From Chloroflexaceae bacterium (lineage in GTDB: Bacteria; Chloroflexota; Chloroflexia; Chloroflexales; Chloroflexaceae), in assembly GCA_028282325.1 (NCBI GenBank), contig JANQID010000060.1, forward strand, positions 1 through 40,125: a stretch of 40,125 nucleotides of DNA, written 5' to 3'. Shown piece after piece: positions 5,240 to 16,946 of the stretch. Made by a program: the position numbers and the translations under genes. A model generated the notes under the pieces. That model made no database searches and had not been told where the DNA came from. It saw only the letters and a program-made list of their open reading frames with translations. Within the stretch, counting starts at the first letter, position 1; the number at the start of each line of letters is the position of its first letter.

Positions 5240-6240
5240 ACATCACTCCTTCGTGAAAGAAAGGCCTGGAGCGCTCCTTCAGCCAGAGTATATTCGTCAT
5301 ACGCGTCTTGTTCAGCCGCCAGTTCGTGCAATGCGGTTTCGATATCGTATTCAGCTGTCCATCCAAGTTCATTGCCGGCGCGCTGCGTATCGACAACGCA
5401 AGCATATCGCAGAAATGCTTGATCGAACGGCCAGTCGCCGGACGCTTTCTGGTTCATTCGCAAGGAGGCGCCGACATTCAACAACAGTTCAGGTAACGGC
5501 AAAGGCATATGGCCTACCAACCGGATGGCACGCTCAAGCGTCGTTGAGCCTGATGAAGCCAGATTAAATGGCCCGACAGCATCGCTTGTCGCTGCCAGAA
5601 CGAATGCTTGCGCTGCATCATCGGCGTGTAATACTTGTACGCGTGGATTGTATCCCAACAGCGTGGCGGGCATTGCCTGGTTTAGATAACTTGCAAATGG
5701 CGACCAGACGCCTCCGCCAACTAGTGGCGCACAGCGTAACGTAACAACCTGAAGGTCAGGATTTGCGTCCGGCATCTCCGATACAAACGACTCGAGATCG
5801 CCATAGCTAAGCGCCGAAACCTCTTCAGCAGGGGCTGGAAGCGGTTGTTCTTCGCTAATAAAAGCCGGATTGACCGGATTCGCTCCGTAAACGAGGCTGC
5901 TGCTATGGATAACAATCCGCTGTACACCATTCGCGGCATAGGTCATTATAGCATCGGCGGTTCGTCGAATATCTGGCTGGTGCAGCAGCGTATTATCGTT
6001 GTCGGACGATATCTGACTGGCCGGATCCAGGCGAATTACCGTATCGATGCCTTCAGCCTGGATCAGCTTCGCGATCTGGTCATCGCTGAGTCTGGCAGTC
6101 AACACATCAACGGTTTGCAATGGCATTACCGGCGGTCGATTGCCCCATCCGATCAAGCGCACCCCATCTTGATCGACCAGCTTTTGCGCCACCTTTATGC
6201 CCAATATGCTATCTATCCCGTATAGTAAAATTGTGGTCAT
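5236..6240 (-). CDS. Extended SDR family NAD-dependent epimerase/dehydratase-like protein
   Basis: 334 residues with an N-terminal Rossmann region (LLYGIDSILG), a mid-region IVIHSSSLVYG strand and a C-terminal substrate lobe typical of nucleotide-sugar epimerases. Two canonical elements are weak: the glycine-rich loop is YGIDSILG rather than GxxGxxG, and the YxxxK pair appears as SYGDLE, lacking the lysine. This may be an atypical SDR or a binding protein. It sits between the Doc-like and acyltransferase genes with four-base overlaps on both sides. I recall the same SDR plus acyltransferase pairing in mycobacteria (Rv0501-Rv0502), which suggests a conserved envelope function, but the substrate cannot be named. 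Confidence 0.8.
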   Translation of the reverse strand: MTTILLYGIDSILGIKVAQKLVDQDGVRLIGWGNRPPVMPLQTVDVLTARLSDDQIAKLIQAEGIDTVIRLDPASQISSDNDNTLLHQPDIRRTADAIMTYAANGVQRIVIHSSSLVYGANPVNPAFISEEQPLPAPAEEVSALSYGDLESFVSEMPDANPDLQVVTLRCAPLVGGGVWSPFASYLNQAMPATLLGYNPRVQVLHADDAAQAFVLAATSDAVGPFNLASSGSTTLERAIRLVGHMPLPLPELLLNVGASLRMNQKASGDWPFDQAFLRYACVVDTQRAGNELGWTAEYDIETALHELAAEQDAYDEYTLAEGALQAFLSRRSDV

Positions 6241-6671
6241 AGCCCTTCTCTCCCAGCAGCCGGAGGGTGCTCTGAACTGTCCGAAGCAAATACAAGGCTA
6301 TCGCGCAACCATTGATCAAGGCCTTCTTTATCGAGATCAGAGTGGCTCAATGCCCGCACAAGCCAGACCAATTCGCCGGCGCTGATGTTGAAGCGCAGCA
6401 TAGCGTCATTGATATCGAGGAAGCGTAGGAAAGCCATCAGAGCAGTAACCTCATTGCCATCGACAAACGGGCGACTCTTGACCAACAGATACATCAGAGC
6501 GGCGGCTTTGCTGCACAAATCGGGATACAATTCAACGCCGAACATTTTTTGGCGCGGCGCATTCAATACCGTCTGCAGACGATCCTGGCTGGCTATTCCC
6601 AACAGACCGCCATAACGAGTTACAGCATAAGTATGTAAATCAAGCAGTTGTTCTTTTGTTAGATACTGCAT
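6237..6671 (-). CDS. Degenerate Doc/Fic-family protein
   Basis: 144 residues. The start MQYLTKEQLLDLH and the helix bundle around residues 52-85 match the Doc (death-on-curing) branch of Fic proteins, which phosphorylate or AMPylate targets. The active-site loop, normally HPFxDGNKRT, reads RPFVDGNEVT: catalytic His is Arg67, and Lys-Arg are Glu74-Val75. The CAC-to-CGC change is visible in the DNA. The protein is therefore probably not a kinase or AMPylator. Downstream it overlaps the SDR start by ATGA; upstream, 86 bases away, is a small antitoxin-like gene, the usual Phd-Doc order. It may be a domesticated remnant kept for its place in the operon. Confidence 0.75.
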   Translation of the reverse strand: MQYLTKEQLLDLHTYAVTRYGGLLGIASQDRLQTVLNAPRQKMFGVELYPDLCSKAAALMYLLVKSRPFVDGNEVTALMAFLRFLDINDAMLRFNISAGELVWLVRALSHSDLDKEGLDQWLRDSLVFASDSSEHPPAAGREGL

Positions 6672-9395: not shown

Positions 9396-10811
9396 ATGGC
9401 CAATGTCGTCAATCCGACTATTTTTCGCGCCTATGATATTCGCGGCGTCGTTGACGTTGATCTGACGGAACAGACGTATTTCATACTCGGCCAGGCGACA
9501 GGCACGTATTTTGGGCGTCATGGCGCACAGGTAATGGCGATTGGCCGTGATGCTCGACTTAGCTCCCCTCTTTTCCAGCAAGCGTTTATCGCCGGTCTGC
9601 GTACTACTGGCATCGATGCTATTGACATTGGCGAGGTTCCCACGCCTGTGATGTATTTCGCCGTCGAGCATCTGGGGGTCGGGGGCGGGGCTATTATCTC
9701 GGCAAGCCATAACCCATCGCGGTACAATGGACTGAAGCTACGAAGGGCGCATTCCCGCTACGGCAGCGAGCCGCTGACAAGCGCGGAGATTCAAGCGTTA
9801 GAGCGGATTGCAAATAGCGGTGTGTTTGCGCAAGGTCAGGGTTCGCTGAGGGCTGCTGATGTACGTGATGCATATATTCAGAGCGCTGCTGCACTGCTGC
9901 GCTTGCCGGACTCATACCGCCCGCGCGTCGTGCTTGACGGCGGCAATGGCGTGGCTGGCCCTTGCGGCGTGCGTTTGCTCGAAGCCATCGGAGCCGAGGT
10001 TATTCCGCTGTATATCGAGCCAGATGGCGCCTTCCCCAATCACCATCCCGATCCGCTGAAACCCGAAAATATCCAGGATCTTAGCAAGACTGTGCGCGCC
10101 CACGGCGCCGACCTGGGAATAGCGCTAGACGGCGACGGCGACCGATTGGGCGTTGTAGATCACACTGGCGAGATCGTCTGGGCCGATCGCTATCTGATAG
10201 TTCTGGCGCGCTATTTGCTGTCAAAACGCCGCGGCCCCGTCGTCTTTGATGTAAAATGCAGCACGGTTCTTGCGGATGCTATTCGCGACCTGGGCGGCGC
10301 GCCTGTGATGTGGAAAACGGGTTACTCAAACCTTTCAGCAAAAATGCGCGAAACGGATGCTGTGCTTGGCGGTGAGCTCAGCGGACATACAATTTTTCCA
10401 TATGCCCGGCACTACTATGACGATGGCGTATTTGCAGGCGCTCACCTCCTCTATGCGCTTACACAACTTGCTGATGATGGACGACTATTACCGCTGGCGG
10501 ATGCGTTGGCGTCGTATCCTGCGCTCCCATCAATCGATGAGGGACGCATTCCGTTTGACGAGACAACCAAGTTTCAAGTGATAGCCTATGTCCGAGATCA
10601 CTTTGCACGTGACTATGCAGTGATCGACATTGATGGGGTGCGTGTTGATTTTGGCGACGGATGGGGACTTGTACGCGCTTCAAATACCGAACCGGCCATC
10701 ACTACTCGTTTTGAGGCTGCAACCGAGGAGCGAGTACGCGATATCCGCACAGCGATGATGACAGTAGTCGAAGATTTTCGCCGCACATTAGATCGGCAGG
10801 TGACGGGTTGA
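9396..10811 (+). CDS. Phosphomannomutase/phosphoglucomutase (alpha-D-phosphohexomutase)
   Basis: 471 residues. It interconverts hexose 1- and 6-phosphates through a phosphoserine enzyme. All signatures are present: FRAYDIRG near the start, phosphoserine loop SASHNP with Ser104, metal loop DGDGDR (Asp245, Asp247, Asp249), sugar-binding GGELSGH near 335, and phosphate-binding RASNTEP near 435. AGGAGA precedes the ATG. It is first in a five-gene plus-strand operon with sugar-nucleotide genes, so it probably feeds mannose- or glucose-1-phosphate (or glucosamine) into envelope precursor synthesis. Sugar specificity cannot be told from sequence alone. Confidence 0.94.
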   Translation: MANVVNPTIFRAYDIRGVVDVDLTEQTYFILGQATGTYFGRHGAQVMAIGRDARLSSPLFQQAFIAGLRTTGIDAIDIGEVPTPVMYFAVEHLGVGGGAIISASHNPSRYNGLKLRRAHSRYGSEPLTSAEIQALERIANSGVFAQGQGSLRAADVRDAYIQSAAALLRLPDSYRPRVVLDGGNGVAGPCGVRLLEAIGAEVIPLYIEPDGAFPNHHPDPLKPENIQDLSKTVRAHGADLGIALDGDGDRLGVVDHTGEIVWADRYLIVLARYLLSKRRGPVVFDVKCSTVLADAIRDLGGAPVMWKTGYSNLSAKMRETDAVLGGELSGHTIFPYARHYYDDGVFAGAHLLYALTQLADDGRLLPLADALASYPALPSIDEGRIPFDETTKFQVIAYVRDHFARDYAVIDIDGVRVDFGDGWGLVRASNTEPAITTRFEAATEERVRDIRTAMMTVVEDFRRTLDRQVTG

Positions 10812-10858: not shown

Positions 10859-12016
10859 ATGCCTGAACGCCTTCAGATTGTGCAAAAATTCTGGGAAGGG
10901 ATCTACACTGTCGATTTTACGTTGGAGCAGATGCGGCGACGTTGTTCTCGTCTAGGGGTAGATCTGCTGGCGCGAGGATGGGACTGTCTGATAGCGCATG
11001 ATACGCGCTTCATGTCAAATCTTTTTGCGCGTGATGTGTATCGCCAACTAGACTCGCAGGGTGTACCGGTGTATCTTTTTTCGGCAACGCCCGCGCCGCT
11101 TCCCTCAATCCGGTTCGCGCTCGAAGAACAACGTGCGCGGTGCGCCTTAGTTGTTTCGGCGCGCAATCGACCTTACTGGTTCAATGGGTTGGTATTCCTG
11201 TATCCTGATATAGCAGATATTCCTCTTCAGCCCGATGGTGAGATATCGGGAACTGGCTTTGAATTTCCCCAATTGGACGATATTGGCGGTGGCATCCATA
11301 TCCAGAACTTGCGCGATCCATATCTAGCTGCGCTCCAGTCCCATATCGATGTTGAAATGATACGTCGTTCGGCGTTGACTATCTTTGCCGACCCGATCCA
11401 CGGTACGACTGCGGGGTATCTGCCGGCTATAATCACCGAGAGCGGTCAGGCCAGGGCGATTGAGATCAATCGTGATCCTGACCCGCTGTTTGGACGAAAT
11501 ACGCCGTTGCCCGCCGAAGCTAGCCTGGCCCGAATGCGCAAGCTCGTGCGCGAGAGCGACTCGCATCTGGGTTTGGCCTTCTCCGCCGACGGTACGGCGT
11601 TGAGCGTCGTTGACAAGAATGGCGATCGACTGGAACATCTGGAGGTAGCGCTGCTGCTGGCGGCATATCTGATGCGCCAGTATCGACAGAAAGGTATCGT
11701 GATTGTACCGCCGCCTGCCGCAGATTCACCGTTGAGCCAATCTCTGGTTGGGATTCAACGATGGGAAGATGCGACCGGCATCCATGTAGAATTGAGTAAC
11801 GATGCGAAGACGCGGATAAACGAAGTTCTGGCTCAGGATCGTTCCAATCTTCTGATCGGATGCACTGCAGAAGGCGAGATTATCCAAGGGCAAGATCGAG
11901 CATATCCCGATGCCTTACGAGCCGGATTGTTGATTATAGAGTTGGCTGCACGTAATGGCGGCAATCTGCGTTCTTTGTTGGATGAATTACGAGGGCAACT
12001 CCTCCGAAAATCGTAA
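10859..12016 (+). CDS. Catalytically degenerate phosphohexomutase paralogue
   Basis: 385 residues, shorter than the neighbouring enzyme (471). It aligns with it without gaps at two active-site blocks. The phosphoserine block SASHNPSRYNG corresponds to SARNRPYWFNG (100-110), so the catalytic Ser is Arg102 and the following His is Asn103. The metal loop LDGDGDR corresponds to FSADGTA (241-247), losing two of three Asp and the Arg. GCTAEGE replaces the GGE sugar loop, and domain 4 with its phosphate loop seems missing. Open frame and codon use look normal, so it appears maintained rather than decaying. Likely role: regulatory or scaffold partner of the active enzyme (inference). Confidence 0.78.
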   Translation: MPERLQIVQKFWEGIYTVDFTLEQMRRRCSRLGVDLLARGWDCLIAHDTRFMSNLFARDVYRQLDSQGVPVYLFSATPAPLPSIRFALEEQRARCALVVSARNRPYWFNGLVFLYPDIADIPLQPDGEISGTGFEFPQLDDIGGGIHIQNLRDPYLAALQSHIDVEMIRRSALTIFADPIHGTTAGYLPAIITESGQARAIEINRDPDPLFGRNTPLPAEASLARMRKLVRESDSHLGLAFSADGTALSVVDKNGDRLEHLEVALLLAAYLMRQYRQKGIVIVPPPAADSPLSQSLVGIQRWEDATGIHVELSNDAKTRINEVLAQDRSNLLIGCTAEGEIIQGQDRAYPDALRAGLLIIELAARNGGNLRSLLDELRGQLLRKS

Positions 12017-12058: not shown

Positions 12059-13333
12059 ATGCAAACTATCATTCGTAGATTGTCATCATTGGTCTACCTT
12101 TTTCAACCTCTGGCGCTTACCTTGCTTGGTGTTGTATTGCTGTCGTTAGGGTTTGCATATCTAGTCATCCATGTGTATCGCACCATCGAATTTCCAGAGC
12201 TTTTCTACTATCTGACGCTGCAGTTTTTGCCGCGCCCGACCCGCGGCATTCTCTTGTTGATTCTGGGCGTTGGGACGCTTGGTATTGGCATATGGCGGCT
12301 CAGCGGCGTTGTTGTCATCCCATTGAGCGCCCAGCAGGCGTCAAGCGAAGTCGTGGTCGGCTATCGTCGAACAGGCAGATCGCCGCGTGTCGCAGTGTTA
12401 TCGGGCGGCGCAGGCGTGATAGTGTTGTCTAGCCTGGGCGAGCATATCGAGCGTTTAACGTGTATTACGCCTATTCAGGATCCAGTGGAATATTACTGGC
12501 GCGCGTCGAGTCTAATCACTTCAGGCTCGATCTATTTTGTGGCGCCGTCGCCTGTCCCGGTACAGGTATTTGCCGAGCTTGACGACGCGACCTTGATCAA
12601 TATCAAGTACATTGACGTTGATCCACAATTGGCTCCTCGCTATGTGAAAACCTTGATGTTGCGCACGGAACAGCATCTGGATGACGAGCACCTTGGCGTC
12701 GGGAATGGCATCGAGCAGACAAGTGGTCAAGCCAGCAGCTCAGGCGCACAGGCGTTATCATCAACGATGACTGTGAGTTTGCCGCTTACTCGGCTAGCGC
12801 TCGAAGCGATTCGTGAAGCCGACGCTATCGTGCTCGGGCCGGGAAGCTTGTTCGAGAGTATTCTGCCTAACATGCTAATAGATGAATTACGTGAGGCGTT
12901 ACAGCAAAGCAAGGCGCGCAAGATCTATATTTGCAACTTGATGACGGAACCTGGCTTCACCACAGGCTTCAGCGTGGGCGAGCACATTCGCCAGATTAAA
13001 CGCTACGGCGGGTTTACGCCTGATTATGCTCTGGTGAATGCACAACGCATCGAACCGGCCGTCTATAAACTGTATGAGGCGGCAAATCAGCTTCCGGTGT
13101 ATTTGAACCCGGAAGAATATGAAGAGACCGTCGTCTTCGCCGGCGAGCGTCTGTCTGAGCGTCATATCGTCGTCGAGGGCAGCCTGGTGTTCGAAGCCGA
13201 CTTATCCAGTTCGGTCATCCAACACACTGTAGACATCGACAAACCCGATGAAGTGCGCGCGGTTCGAGTTTTGCGTCACGACGGACAGAAGCTTGCAGCG
13301 GCCATATTGGAGTTGCTCAAGCGTGGGGCATAA
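12059..13333 (+). CDS. YvcK/CofD-like protein with N-terminal membrane anchor, degenerate binding loop
   Basis: 424 residues. Two membrane segments (about 14-38 and 62-85) are followed by a YvcK/CofD-type Rossmann domain. The hallmark distal motifs are good: ADAIVLGPGSLFESILPN (254-271) and CNLMTEPGFTTGFSVGEHI (292-310). The N-terminal GGGTG loop is SGGAG (115-119), and the DDGGSSG motif that follows in true YvcK reads as QDPVEYY. YvcK proteins bind UDP-sugars and tune cell-wall precursor synthesis; with this altered loop ligand binding is uncertain. Position between a dead hexomutase and a GlmU-like gene fits a membrane-anchored regulator of sugar-nucleotide metabolism. Confidence 0.75.
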   Translation: MQTIIRRLSSLVYLFQPLALTLLGVVLLSLGFAYLVIHVYRTIEFPELFYYLTLQFLPRPTRGILLLILGVGTLGIGIWRLSGVVVIPLSAQQASSEVVVGYRRTGRSPRVAVLSGGAGVIVLSSLGEHIERLTCITPIQDPVEYYWRASSLITSGSIYFVAPSPVPVQVFAELDDATLINIKYIDVDPQLAPRYVKTLMLRTEQHLDDEHLGVGNGIEQTSGQASSSGAQALSSTMTVSLPLTRLALEAIREADAIVLGPGSLFESILPNMLIDELREALQQSKARKIYICNLMTEPGFTTGFSVGEHIRQIKRYGGFTPDYALVNAQRIEPAVYKLYEAANQLPVYLNPEEYEETVVFAGERLSERHIVVEGSLVFEADLSSSVIQHTVDIDKPDEVRAVRVLRHDGQKLAAAILELLKRGA

Positions 13334-13354: not shown

Positions 13355-14716
13355 ATGACGATCCTCCTTTTTGAAGGCGATCTCTGGCGCAATTTTGCAC
13401 CACTGGTATATTCACGTCCGCTCTTTGAGCTACGCTGTGGCGGTTTTACGCTACGTGAACGAGCAGAAGCCCTGGCAGCGCAGTGTGCCAATCAATCATC
13501 GCGGAAGGAACGTTGCCCGCATGTGGCTGGTTTGTGTCGCCCCCATCTGATGGAATACTATGGATCGCCTGGCGGTATGCAGTCGCTGATCTGCGACAGT
13601 GAGCCGATAACGCTCATCAACGGTCGAGTCTTGGATTTGAGCTGGCTGCTCGACTTGATCAACGGCCCGGTCGGAACGGTCTACGCGAAAGAAGGCGTGC
13701 TGGTCGGTGCGCATCTTTCACCAGCGCTGGCTAGCGCTGTTCTCTATTATTTGAAAGATCAACACGTCGCCGCCACGTTTGAGGAGTTGAAACGCTTTTG
13801 CCGGATTGTAGAGATTGATACGCCATTGTTGCTTTATCCTTGGGATCTGATCTCGCTGGTCGGTGAACAGTTGGTGCGCGATATACCGCTGTTATCCGCA
13901 AGATTGCCCCGCTATTCCGGCGCCAACGAGCAGATTGCGGTTCGCGGCGGCGAGCATGTGTATGTCGCGCCGACGGCGCGGTTGGATGGGCCGTTGGCGC
14001 TGGATGCGCGCGACGGGCCCGTGTTCATCGATGAGCATGCTCATATCGAGCCGTTTAGCTTCATCCAGGGTCCGGCGTACATTGGTGCAAAGACGCTCGT
14101 CGCCAGCGCACGCATTCGCGGTGAAACCAGCTTCGGCCCGGTATGTCGGGTCGGCGGCGAGGTAGAGGCCAGCATTATCGAGGGATATAGCAACAAACAC
14201 CACGATGGCTTCCTGGGGCATAGCTGGCTCGGCGAGTGGGTCAACATCGGTGCGATGACCACCAATAGCGACCTGAAAAATAACTATGGCAGCATTCGTG
14301 TGACGATGGAAGGCGTAGGTCAGCTTGACAGCGGGCAGATCAAGCTGGGCTGCTTTTTGGCCGATCACGTCAAACTGGGCATTGGGTTACACCTCAACGG
14401 CGGTACGGTTATCGGCGTCGGCAGCAACATTTTTGGCGTTCACGCCGCCCCCAAAACCATTCCCCCCTTCACGTGGGGCGGCGATGTTTTCCGTGAATAT
14501 CGCATCGACAATATGGTGAAGGTGGCGCACACCGTTATGCAGCGGCGCAAACGCGAATTAACGCCGGCCTACGAAACGTTGTTGCGCAAGGTGTTCGATA
14601 TGACGCGCCATGATCGTCGTACGCTGGTCGATGAAATACCCAGTGAGGCGGTGGTGCGATCTGGTATGAGTGAGACAGCGCTGGCTCGTGCTGAGGCCGA
14701 AGCAATTCGCGCATAA
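13355..14716 (+). CDS. GlmU-like putative sugar nucleotidyltransferase with left-handed beta-helix
   Basis: 453 residues. The N-terminus (FEGDLWRNFAPLVYSRPLFELRCG) matches the GlmU_N / NTP_transf_4 type in which the usual GGxGTR loop is absent. From about residue 195 to 400, hexapeptide repeats form a left-handed beta-helix acyltransferase-like domain, including NKHHDGFLGHSWLGEWVNIGA and TNSDLKNNYG, both typical of this alternative GlmU family. Substrate is probably an N-acetylhexosamine phosphate, but this is inference. It lies 21 bases after the YvcK-like gene and 78 before selA, on the same strand, presumably in one operon. Confidence 0.85.
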   Translation: MTILLFEGDLWRNFAPLVYSRPLFELRCGGFTLRERAEALAAQCANQSSRKERCPHVAGLCRPHLMEYYGSPGGMQSLICDSEPITLINGRVLDLSWLLDLINGPVGTVYAKEGVLVGAHLSPALASAVLYYLKDQHVAATFEELKRFCRIVEIDTPLLLYPWDLISLVGEQLVRDIPLLSARLPRYSGANEQIAVRGGEHVYVAPTARLDGPLALDARDGPVFIDEHAHIEPFSFIQGPAYIGAKTLVASARIRGETSFGPVCRVGGEVEASIIEGYSNKHHDGFLGHSWLGEWVNIGAMTTNSDLKNNYGSIRVTMEGVGQLDSGQIKLGCFLADHVKLGIGLHLNGGTVIGVGSNIFGVHAAPKTIPPFTWGGDVFREYRIDNMVKVAHTVMQRRKRELTPAYETLLRKVFDMTRHDRRTLVDEIPSEAVVRSGMSETALARAEAEAIRA

Positions 14717-14794: not shown

Positions 14795-16231
14795 ATGACA
14801 GCCTTTCGCAATTTGCCCAGCGTTGAACGGCTCGTGCGAGCGGTAGAGGAGCAGATCGGCGCAGAGGCTTTGCCCCGCACGCGGCTGGTTGAGGCGGCTC
14901 GCGCTGAGCTGGATGCCGTTCGCGCCGTGCTGCGCGAACAGCGTGACGGGCAACAGAACGATGTGAACGTTGTCACCGAGCCAGAAAACGCTTACCAGGC
15001 GTTCGAACGCTTGGTCGCAGCTGTCCGGCGACGTCTGCATACATTGACGACGCCGAGTTTGCGCCCGGTGATCAATGCCAGTGGCGTGATTATCCAGACT
15101 AATCTGGGCCGCGCGCCCTTGAGCGATGCGGCGCTGGCGGCAATGCAGGCCATAGGAACGGGCTATTCCAACCTGGAGTATGATCTAGACGCCGGTCAGC
15201 GGGGCAGCCGTTCGGTGCATCTCACCGCGTTGCTGTCCCAGATTACAGGCGCAGAATCTGCACTTGTCGTCAATAATAACGCCGCCGCCATCTACCTGGC
15301 GCTGATCGCATTGGCAACCGGTCGTGAGGTTATCATTTCGCGCGGGCAAGCCGTCGAGATCGGCGGCGGCTTTCGCATTCCCGATGTATTGCGGCAGAGC
15401 GGGGCCACGCTGGTCGAGGTCGGAACCACCAACCGCACCTACGCACGCGACTACGCTGCCGCGATCAACGATCGTACCGCCTTGCTGATGCGTGTTCACA
15501 CTAGCAATTTTCGGTTGGCTGGCTTTGTTCACGAGACTAGCTTGGCCGAGATCGTCGCGGTTGGCCGCCAGCACGGCGTGCCAGTTCTGGACGACCTGGG
15601 AAGCGGAACGCTGTTGCCCACCGCGCTGTATGGCCTCTCGCCCGAACCGACCGTGCAGGAGAGCCTGGTCGCCGGGGCCGATCTGGTGATGTTTAGCGGC
15701 GATAAGCTCCTTGGAGGTTCGCAGGCCGGATTGATCGTCGGGCGCAAGGATCTGACGGATCAGCTGAAGGGCCACCCGCTGGCGCGGGCGTTGCGGGTGG
15801 ACAAAAACACGTTGTCGGCGATGGAAGCGACGCTGATGGCCTATGCGCGCGGAACGGCGCCGGATGAGATTCCCGTGTGGCGGATGATCTCCATGCCGTT
15901 GGAGCGCCTGCGTCCGCGGGTTGAAGCGGTGGCCAACCAATTGCAGGCAGCAGCGATACCCGCGCACGTTGTGGAATGCGCCAGCGCCGTCGGTGGCGGT
16001 TCGTTGCCCGGCGACACGCTGCCGAGTCTGGGTGTCGCGCTCAATGCGAGCGATCTTGCTCCGCTCACGCTGGACGATATTGCGAGGGCGTTGCGTACTG
16101 GAGAACCGGCGGTTGTGCCGCGCATCGCCGCCGAGCAGCTTATCTTCGACTTGCGCACCGTGTCGCCGCAACACGATTCGACGCTATTCGAGCGTATTTG
16201 TAACGTAGTCAAACATCAGACAACACCGTAA
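14795..16231 (+). CDS. selA: L-seryl-tRNA(Sec) selenium transferase
   Basis: 478 residues, the family length. This PLP enzyme turns Ser-tRNA(Sec) into selenocysteinyl-tRNA using selenophosphate. N-terminal domain with LPSVERLV; INASGVIIQTNLGRAPLS near 92; SNLEYDL; and the PLP lysine in FSGDKLLGGSQAG (Lys304). All match SelA closely. Its presence implies that the organism makes selenoproteins. No selB, selD or tRNA-Sec gene is visible in the window. It is last in the sugar-nucleotide operon and ends in a strong hairpin. Confidence 0.95.
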   Translation: MTAFRNLPSVERLVRAVEEQIGAEALPRTRLVEAARAELDAVRAVLREQRDGQQNDVNVVTEPENAYQAFERLVAAVRRRLHTLTTPSLRPVINASGVIIQTNLGRAPLSDAALAAMQAIGTGYSNLEYDLDAGQRGSRSVHLTALLSQITGAESALVVNNNAAAIYLALIALATGREVIISRGQAVEIGGGFRIPDVLRQSGATLVEVGTTNRTYARDYAAAINDRTALLMRVHTSNFRLAGFVHETSLAEIVAVGRQHGVPVLDDLGSGTLLPTALYGLSPEPTVQESLVAGADLVMFSGDKLLGGSQAGLIVGRKDLTDQLKGHPLARALRVDKNTLSAMEATLMAYARGTAPDEIPVWRMISMPLERLRPRVEAVANQLQAAAIPAHVVECASAVGGGSLPGDTLPSLGVALNASDLAPLTLDDIARALRTGEPAVVPRIAAEQLIFDLRTVSPQHDSTLFERICNVVKHQTTP

Positions 16232-16272: not shown

Positions 16273-16298
16273 CATTGTACCCTCGCCGGAAGCCTGCG

Positions 16299-16535
16299 CT
16301 AGAGACCAAAGAACTTGCGATTCTTCTCGATGTAGCTGATCCACTTATCGGGCACGCCGTCATCGGGGAAGATTGCTTCAACCGGGCACTCCGGTTCGCA
16401 TGCGCCGCAGTCCAGACACTCATCAGGGTTGATGTAGTACTGATCATCACCCTCGTAAATGCAATCGACCGGGCATACGGAGACACAGGCCGAGTCTTTG
16501 GTATCCACACATGGTTCAGCAATAACGTGTGGCAA
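16299..16535 (-). CDS. 7Fe ferredoxin, copy 1 (TTG start)
   Basis: 78 residues. A small soluble electron carrier with one [3Fe-4S] and one [4Fe-4S] cluster. Spacing C-x7-C-x3-C-P then C-x2-C-x2-C-x3-C-P is that of Azotobacter FdI / Thermus-type 7Fe ferredoxins; the second Cys of a full 8Fe cluster is replaced. The start is placed at TTG 16535-16533: an AAGGAGG ribosome site directly abuts the ATG at 16541, leaving no room, but lies six bases before the TTG. That start also makes the protein the same length as its paralogue. About 80% identical to copy 2 by eye. It has its own promoter. Confidence 0.92.
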   Translation of the reverse strand: MPHVIAEPCVDTKDSACVSVCPVDCIYEGDDQYYINPDECLDCGACEPECPVEAIFPDDGVPDKWISYIEKNRKFFGL

Positions 16536-16582
16536 ATTCATCCTCCTTACAGTATTGAGAAACCCGAATACTTTCGTGCTCT

Positions 16583-16611: not shown

Positions 16612-16663
16612 AAAGCCGTTCAACCTTTAACGTAGGTCGGCGCTCTGCGCACCGAAGTCTACG

Positions 16664-16900
16664 CTAGAGGCCGAAGAACTTGCGATTCTTCTCGGTGTAA
16701 CTAATCCATTTCTCGGGCACCGCATCCTCGGCGAAGATAGCTTCGACGGGGCACTCTGGTTCGCACGCGCCGCAGTCAATGCATTCGTCGGGGTTGATGT
16801 AATACTGATCGTCGCCCTCGTAGATGCAATCGACCGGGCATACAGCGACACAGGCCGAGTCTTTGGTATCCACACACGGTTCGGCAATGATGTAGGCCAT
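16664..16900 (-). CDS. 7Fe ferredoxin, copy 2
   Basis: 78 residues. Same cluster ligands: Cys9, Cys17 and Cys50 for [3Fe-4S]; Cys21, Cys40, Cys43 and Cys46 for [4Fe-4S]; plus an extra Cys25, as in FdI. GGAGGAGGG precedes the ATG. It is a tandem duplicate of the downstream gene with differences mostly near the C-terminal half (AEDAVPEK versus PDDGVPDK). Its electron partners are unknown; no oxidoreductase is adjacent. Confidence 0.95.
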
Positions 16901-16946
16901 GCCAACCCTCCTCCGGTGTTTATAAGTCCGAAAACTTTCGTACTAT

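Follow-up and report, generated by a model that had tools for sequence, protein, structure and literature searches.

The vertebrate protein PGM5 (aciculin) is an inactive phosphoglucomutase for which a protein-binding role has been proposed (PMC7761743). GlmM deprived of domain 4 binds the membrane cyclase CdaA through domain 2 and inhibits it (PMC8573169). In trypanosomes, a dead paralogue, the AdoMetDC prozyme, activates the live enzyme (PMC5201418). GlmR/YvcK binds UDP-GlcNAc and both controls and stimulates GlmS (PMC7525490). No description of a prokaryotic pseudo-phosphohexomutase of the kind presented below was found in the open-access papers searched, which also yielded nothing on the phosphoglucosamine mutase of Chloroflexus aurantiacus or on Chloroflexi phosphomannomutase in combination with CofD.

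The window analysed here is a stretch of 40,125 nucleotides (contig JANQID010000060.1) from a Chloroflexaceae bacterium. The genes and segments relevant to this work are the following:

9396-10811, plus strand: active-type phosphohexomutase (PMM/PGM/GlmM-like), 471 aa, with Pfam domains I-IV
10859-12016, plus strand: pseudo-phosphohexomutase, 385 aa, with domains I-III only and the catalytic motifs lost
11159-11173, plus strand: degenerated phosphoserine loop of the pseudo-mutase, residues 101-105, A-R-N-R-P as against A-S-H-N-P
11462-11491, plus strand: conserved domain II segment EINRxxDPLF of the pseudo-mutase, residues 202-211, with E, I, N, R, D208 and F invariant
11582-11596, plus strand: former metal-binding loop of the pseudo-mutase, residues 242-246, S-A-D-G-T as against D-G-D-A/G-D
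12059-13333, plus strand: YvcK/CofD-fold protein with two predicted N-terminal membrane helices (Pfam CofD; structure match)
13355-14716, plus strand: alternative GlmU (UDP-GlcNAc diphosphorylase / GlcN-1-P acetyltransferase; TIGR03991)
14795-16231: selA, following the alternative GlmU gene

The pseudo-mutase ORF starts 47 nt past the end of the intact mutase gene, whose product carries the motifs SASHNP, DGDGDR, GELSGH and RASNTEP. All four Pfam domains are matched in this neighbour; the pseudo-mutase matches PGM_PMM_I (E 8.9e-10) and PGM_PMM_II (4.5e-16), with no match to domains III and IV. The two proteins are 25% identical over 240 aligned positions with 17 gaps, so the gapless alignment reported in the original prediction does not hold. 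The loss of the phosphoserine does hold for the ORF in the window: Arg stands at residue 102, the position of Ser in the neighbour's SASHNP, and the loop TASHNP of full-length relatives aligns with SARNRP. The arginine, however, is not a general feature. Across 42 homologues, position 102 is occupied by Arg in 20, Gly in 13, Cys in 7 and Ser in 2, and in both Ser102 proteins the His at the next position is replaced by Asn. The loop pattern in the 42 proteins is (S/T)A(R/G/C/S)(N/K)(R/Q...), and none of them has (T/S)ASHNP. Loss of the serine is thus the rule, and Arg102 is no signature. The metal-binding loop, DGDADR or DGD(G/A)DR in active enzymes (DGDGDR in the neighbour), has become SADGTA. 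Its reported loss is thus correct except for the middle Asp (D244), the one residue retained, so that two of the three metal ligands are gone; both D244 and S242 are invariant in 42/42 homologues. The last domain is indeed missing: domain IV, including the phosphate loop RxSGTEP, is absent, and matches to full-length mutases and GlmM do not go beyond roughly residue 370. Further losses had escaped earlier notice. The N-terminal FGTDGWRG of full-length relatives aligns with xxWEG, the domain III sugar-recognition loop GGEESGG (GEES/GELSGH) has given way to GxTxxGE, and the TPVGFK (GFK) loop of the same domain is also gone. The loss of these motifs predicts that the protein has no mutase activity, i.e., that it is catalytically dead.

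A different enzymatic activity might nonetheless be exerted through the residues S242, D244, H236 and E232, clustered in or near the old metal site. Their conservation in 41 or 42 of the 42 homologues is stricter than a mere scaffold would predict. Part of this conserved block, however, is similar to the active subfamily and may be a structural inheritance; moreover, every mutase motif examined is lost together with domain IV, and position 102, being R, G, C or S, leaves no conserved nucleophile loop. We regard such an activity as very doubtful. The domain II segment EINRxxDPLF, too, appears to be inherited in part, from the FGTDGWR subfamily described below.

An AlphaFold2 model built on the 42-row alignment (pLDDT 87.7, pTM 0.90) predicts with confidence that the pseudo-mutase has a phosphohexomutase fold, domains I-III, of the alpha-D-phosphohexomutase superfamily. 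Among solved structures, 1tuo, a putative phosphomannomutase of Thermus, matches best (Z 33.7 over 353 residues, rmsd 3.4). Tied with it is 7olh, the B. subtilis GlmM without domain 4 in its complex with CdaA (Z 33.2), to which the model aligns up to residue 369. Since the match extends this far along the domain-4-less GlmM, domain III is predicted to be present as a fold, too diverged for Pfam to detect.

To describe the distribution, 158 genomes of the class were covered by a profile search in which f1 designates the window's family (Chloroflexaceae-like) and f4 the sister family (Roseiflexaceae-like), names inferred from the record titles of named relatives. The three-domain pseudo-mutase occurs in 39/41 f1 genomes and in 12/26 f4 genomes. 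In the two f1 genomes without it, the stretch concerned is missing from the assembly (G022 has its YvcK-like gene starting 212 bases from a contig end; in G046 neither neighbour of the pseudo-mutase was found). Outside the two families, near-full-coverage matches sit in frames of 470-600 aa, the size of full-length mutases. Named carriers include, for f1, Chloroflexus, Ca. Chloroploca, Ca. Viridilinea and Oscillochloris and, for f4, Roseiflexus and Kouleothrix. When 84,980 species were scanned, the Chloroflexales operon came up at 44 loci; one further match was a full-length mutase from a cyanobacterium. Many of the loci are from draft metagenome assemblies; as far as the contigs reach, the order mutase - pseudo-mutase - YvcK-like is found in 44/44, with the alternative GlmU also next in most. 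Hence the search for the pair in other Chloroflexi, suggested along with the original prediction, finds mutase and pseudo-mutase together and in order at all 44 loci. At the junction between these two genes, a 4-nt overlap is seen in 22 of 40 cases. One of the operons lies in a record titled Candidatus Gracilibacteria (locus L035, JAAUTF010000445.1); the matching genome, G016, belongs to the window's family, which makes a mislabelled title probable.

The pseudo-mutase gene is functional, under purifying selection and not eroding, on account of its presence across the genomes, its unbroken synteny and its dN/dS (median 0.116, range 0.058-0.268, in 24 close pairs). The frame is therefore well kept, as originally stated, and the homologues are neither unconserved nor in the course of erosion. 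That the gene is decaying and persists by chance or operon inertia is highly improbable, since the data on selection and conservation already go most of the way to refuting it. The pseudo-mutase does evolve faster than its neighbours (mean pairwise distance 0.42, as against 0.28 in the mutase) and has gone from two lineages, g21 and g31, as a decaying gene might. A dN/dS near 0.12 and the retention of a single clade across two families argue the other way, and the apparent breaks, all in draft assemblies, come down to a gap of N in L074, a probable frameshift in L072 and an indel of one base within a run of G in L063; we thus rejected the reading of the broken copies as pseudogenes. The indel in L063, a deletion relative to the sister genome L077, also accounts for an 822-aa pseudo-mutase/YvcK fusion ORF (L063, G014), which was discarded as proof of contact. 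An 878-aa ORF in L090 is no fusion either, as it runs out of frame across the mutase gene. A joint fold of pseudo-mutase and YvcK by way of the frameshifted ORF was set aside because the mixed alignment was poor.

In a phylogeny of 38 proteins (SH-aLRT supports), the pseudo-mutases form one clade with support of 100. They share one side of a branch, also supported at 100, with full-length FGTDGWR mutases from families f2, f3 and others; across it, the neighbouring mutase falls among other PMM/GlmM proteins. The locus had been described as tandem active and inactive copies. An active mutase does adjoin the inactive protein, but the two are not copies, since the tree assigns them to separate subfamilies and excludes a recent tandem duplication of the neighbouring mutase. 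Judging from the tree, the pseudo-mutase was recruited beside the mutase and not duplicated from it. One or two FGTDGWR enzymes of active type are present in families f2 and f3, and no neighbour-type mutase was found in them at E 1e-100. Within genomes that have the pseudo-mutase, no further match of FGTDGWR strength was found. The tree placement, the content of f2 and f3 and the lack of a second FGTDGWR match lead us to infer that an FGTDGWR-subfamily enzyme, sharing an operon with a mutase from a different subfamily, seems to have become inactive in the ancestor common to f1 and f4.

Two Roseiflexaceae lineages, g21 and g31, keep mutase-YvcK-GlmU while the pseudo-mutase is absent. A tree of mutase plus YvcK indicates at least two later losses of the gene from the sister family, the other operon genes staying in place. 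Since these lineages retain the other three genes, the module can run without the pseudo-mutase. The same tree has long stem branches in both lineages, and the identity of their mutase to that of the window drops from about 61% to 55-58%. A LysS control, however, diverged in parallel, falling from about 70% to 63-66%; the effect therefore looks genome-wide, and faster evolution of the partners after loss of the pseudo-mutase was rejected.

The gene following the pseudo-mutase is conserved in the operon-bearing Chloroflexales, and the window's genome has a separate, canonical YvcK on contig C13. Alignment with the latter shows that the YvcK-like protein is without a segment of some 80 residues that includes PGDLR and GNL, and its score against TIGR01826 (115.2 bits) is below the cut-off of 196. 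The structural model (pLDDT 74) has a Foldseek match to the UPF0052 structure 2hzb (E 7.3e-16). This predicted membrane protein is a shortened, divergent relative of YvcK that may itself be degenerate, a candidate pseudo-protein. Genome G027, of lineage g21, lacks the pseudo-mutase; there, the YvcK-type gene beside GlmU (L082, 7871-8872) also looks degenerate, having GAGRG and PGAAV where GGGxG and PGDLR are usual. The alternative GlmU of the window scores 391.1 bits against TIGR03991, above the curated cut-off of 225.3. Beyond selA lie two direct copies of 259 nt (16289-16547 and 16654-16912), 83% identical and 365 nt apart, and the ORFs within them are partly alike. Elsewhere in the window, a Fic/Doc family protein is encoded at 6237-6671 on the minus strand (Pfam Fic, E 5.6e-15); its motif reads RPFVDGNEVTA versus the usual HxFxDGNKRxA, which suggests that it may be catalytically altered.

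The identity of the active mutase bears on the pathway. Among NCBIfam models, PgmG gives 386 bits and Arch_GlmM 359 bits, both below cut-off; the GlmM model TIGR01455 gives 205.8 bits, below its curated cut-off of 447.55, which no protein in 41 Chloroflexales genomes passes. Four mutase-fold proteins are encoded in the window's genome: the mutase at 9396-10811, the pseudo-mutase, a PMM/PGM on contig C7 and an 842-aa protein on contig C60. Because it adjoins the alternative GlmU, we infer the first of these to be the best candidate phosphoglucosamine mutase of the genome. The locus thereby marks a GlmM candidate in bacteria without a protein passing the standard GlmM model.

The genes adjoining the pseudo-mutase belong to the metabolism of UDP-GlcNAc, a cell-wall sugar, and this context fits the regulatory or complex-forming role proposed at the outset. 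We lean, with slightly better than even confidence, towards the pseudo-mutase being a catalytically dead, non-catalytic subunit kept in the UDP-GlcNAc module encoded with it. Its domain II would contact the mutase and/or the membrane YvcK-like protein, with a phosphosugar or UDP-sugar as the possible signal, bound in what is left of the domain II cleft (S242, D244, EINR, DSH). By analogy, the mode of action could be that of the AdoMetDC prozyme, a dead paralogue serving as activator, or that of domain-4-less GlmM on CdaA. Besides the motif loss, the predicted fold, the purifying selection and the constant gene order, this reading draws on the conservation of domain II, on distance covariation and on the published precedents. 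Domain II is as conserved in the pseudo-mutase as in the active mutase (0.75 in each), whereas domains I and III reach only 0.57-0.58. The covariation of distances with the pseudo-mutase is modest and computed over pairs that are not independent (partial r 0.46 for the mutase, 0.35 for the YvcK-like protein and 0.27 for GlmU), which makes it a weak sign of partnership. Several points count against the subunit reading: the module can run without the pseudo-mutase in g21 and g31, conservation of an operon alone is no proof of contact, and GlcN-6-P and Glc/Man-6-P are both candidate substrates of the active mutase. One elaboration, a Chloroflexales-specific, membrane-anchored UDP-GlcNAc control module in which two degenerate proteins, the pseudo-mutase and the shortened membrane YvcK, would act as one in detecting a sugar metabolite and in keeping active mutase and alternative GlmU together, is a tentative and rather speculative proposal.

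Conservation of domain II would also be expected of a stand-alone ligand sensor or adaptor, with a phosphosugar or a nucleotide sugar bound in the domain II cleft and a target encoded elsewhere, e.g., CdaA as with the GlmM of Firmicutes. GlmM touches CdaA via domain 2, with domain 4 dispensable, and a DAC-domain protein is present in 21/21 genomes tested; DAC is, however, equally present in families without the pseudo-mutase, and no DAC gene was seen at the pseudo-mutase locus. In the alignment, the positions concerned have retained their acidic residues (D150 in 39/42, E/D194 in 41/42), but ordinary mutases have them too, so they do not discriminate and were dropped as evidence for docking on CdaA. 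The tight operon, for its part, suggests local partners. We consider a sensor of this sort unlikely and retain the non-catalytic subunit of the UDP-GlcNAc module as the preferred reading.

By tree, the closest relatives of the pseudo-mutase are the full-length FGTDGWR mutases (L030, L079, L088; nearest structure Thermus 1tuo). They share with it DTRF, EINR/DPLF-like and KLVxES-like segments in domains I-III; unlike it, they have domain IV and the motifs TASHNP, DGDADR, GGEESGG and RxSGTEP. PGM5 resembles the pseudo-mutase in being an inactive, evolutionarily kept member of the same superfamily. It differs in that it is eukaryotic, with a nearly intact active site and conserved substrate binding, whereas the pseudo-mutase is operonic and devoid of both the motifs and domain IV. 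A lineage of bacteria rich in phototrophs keeps, beside an active mutase, a pseudo-mutase without mutase motifs and domain IV. As with the prozyme, a dead paralogue stands beside a live enzyme of one pathway; activation by the prozyme has been demonstrated, while the pseudo-mutase would be a putative activator and belongs to a subfamily other than that of its neighbour. GlmR/YvcK (PMC7525490, PMC10128056) has the same fold as the product of the downstream gene, which differs from it in being membrane-anchored and in missing the PGDLR segment. The GlmM-CdaA complex of Firmicutes offers a mutase fold without domain 4 as a binding partner, by way of domain 2. There the deletion was engineered and GlmM is an active enzyme, whereas in the pseudo-mutase both losses are natural; the protein provides a natural test of the three-domain mutase core as a regulatory or scaffold part, such as the GlmM-CdaA work suggests.
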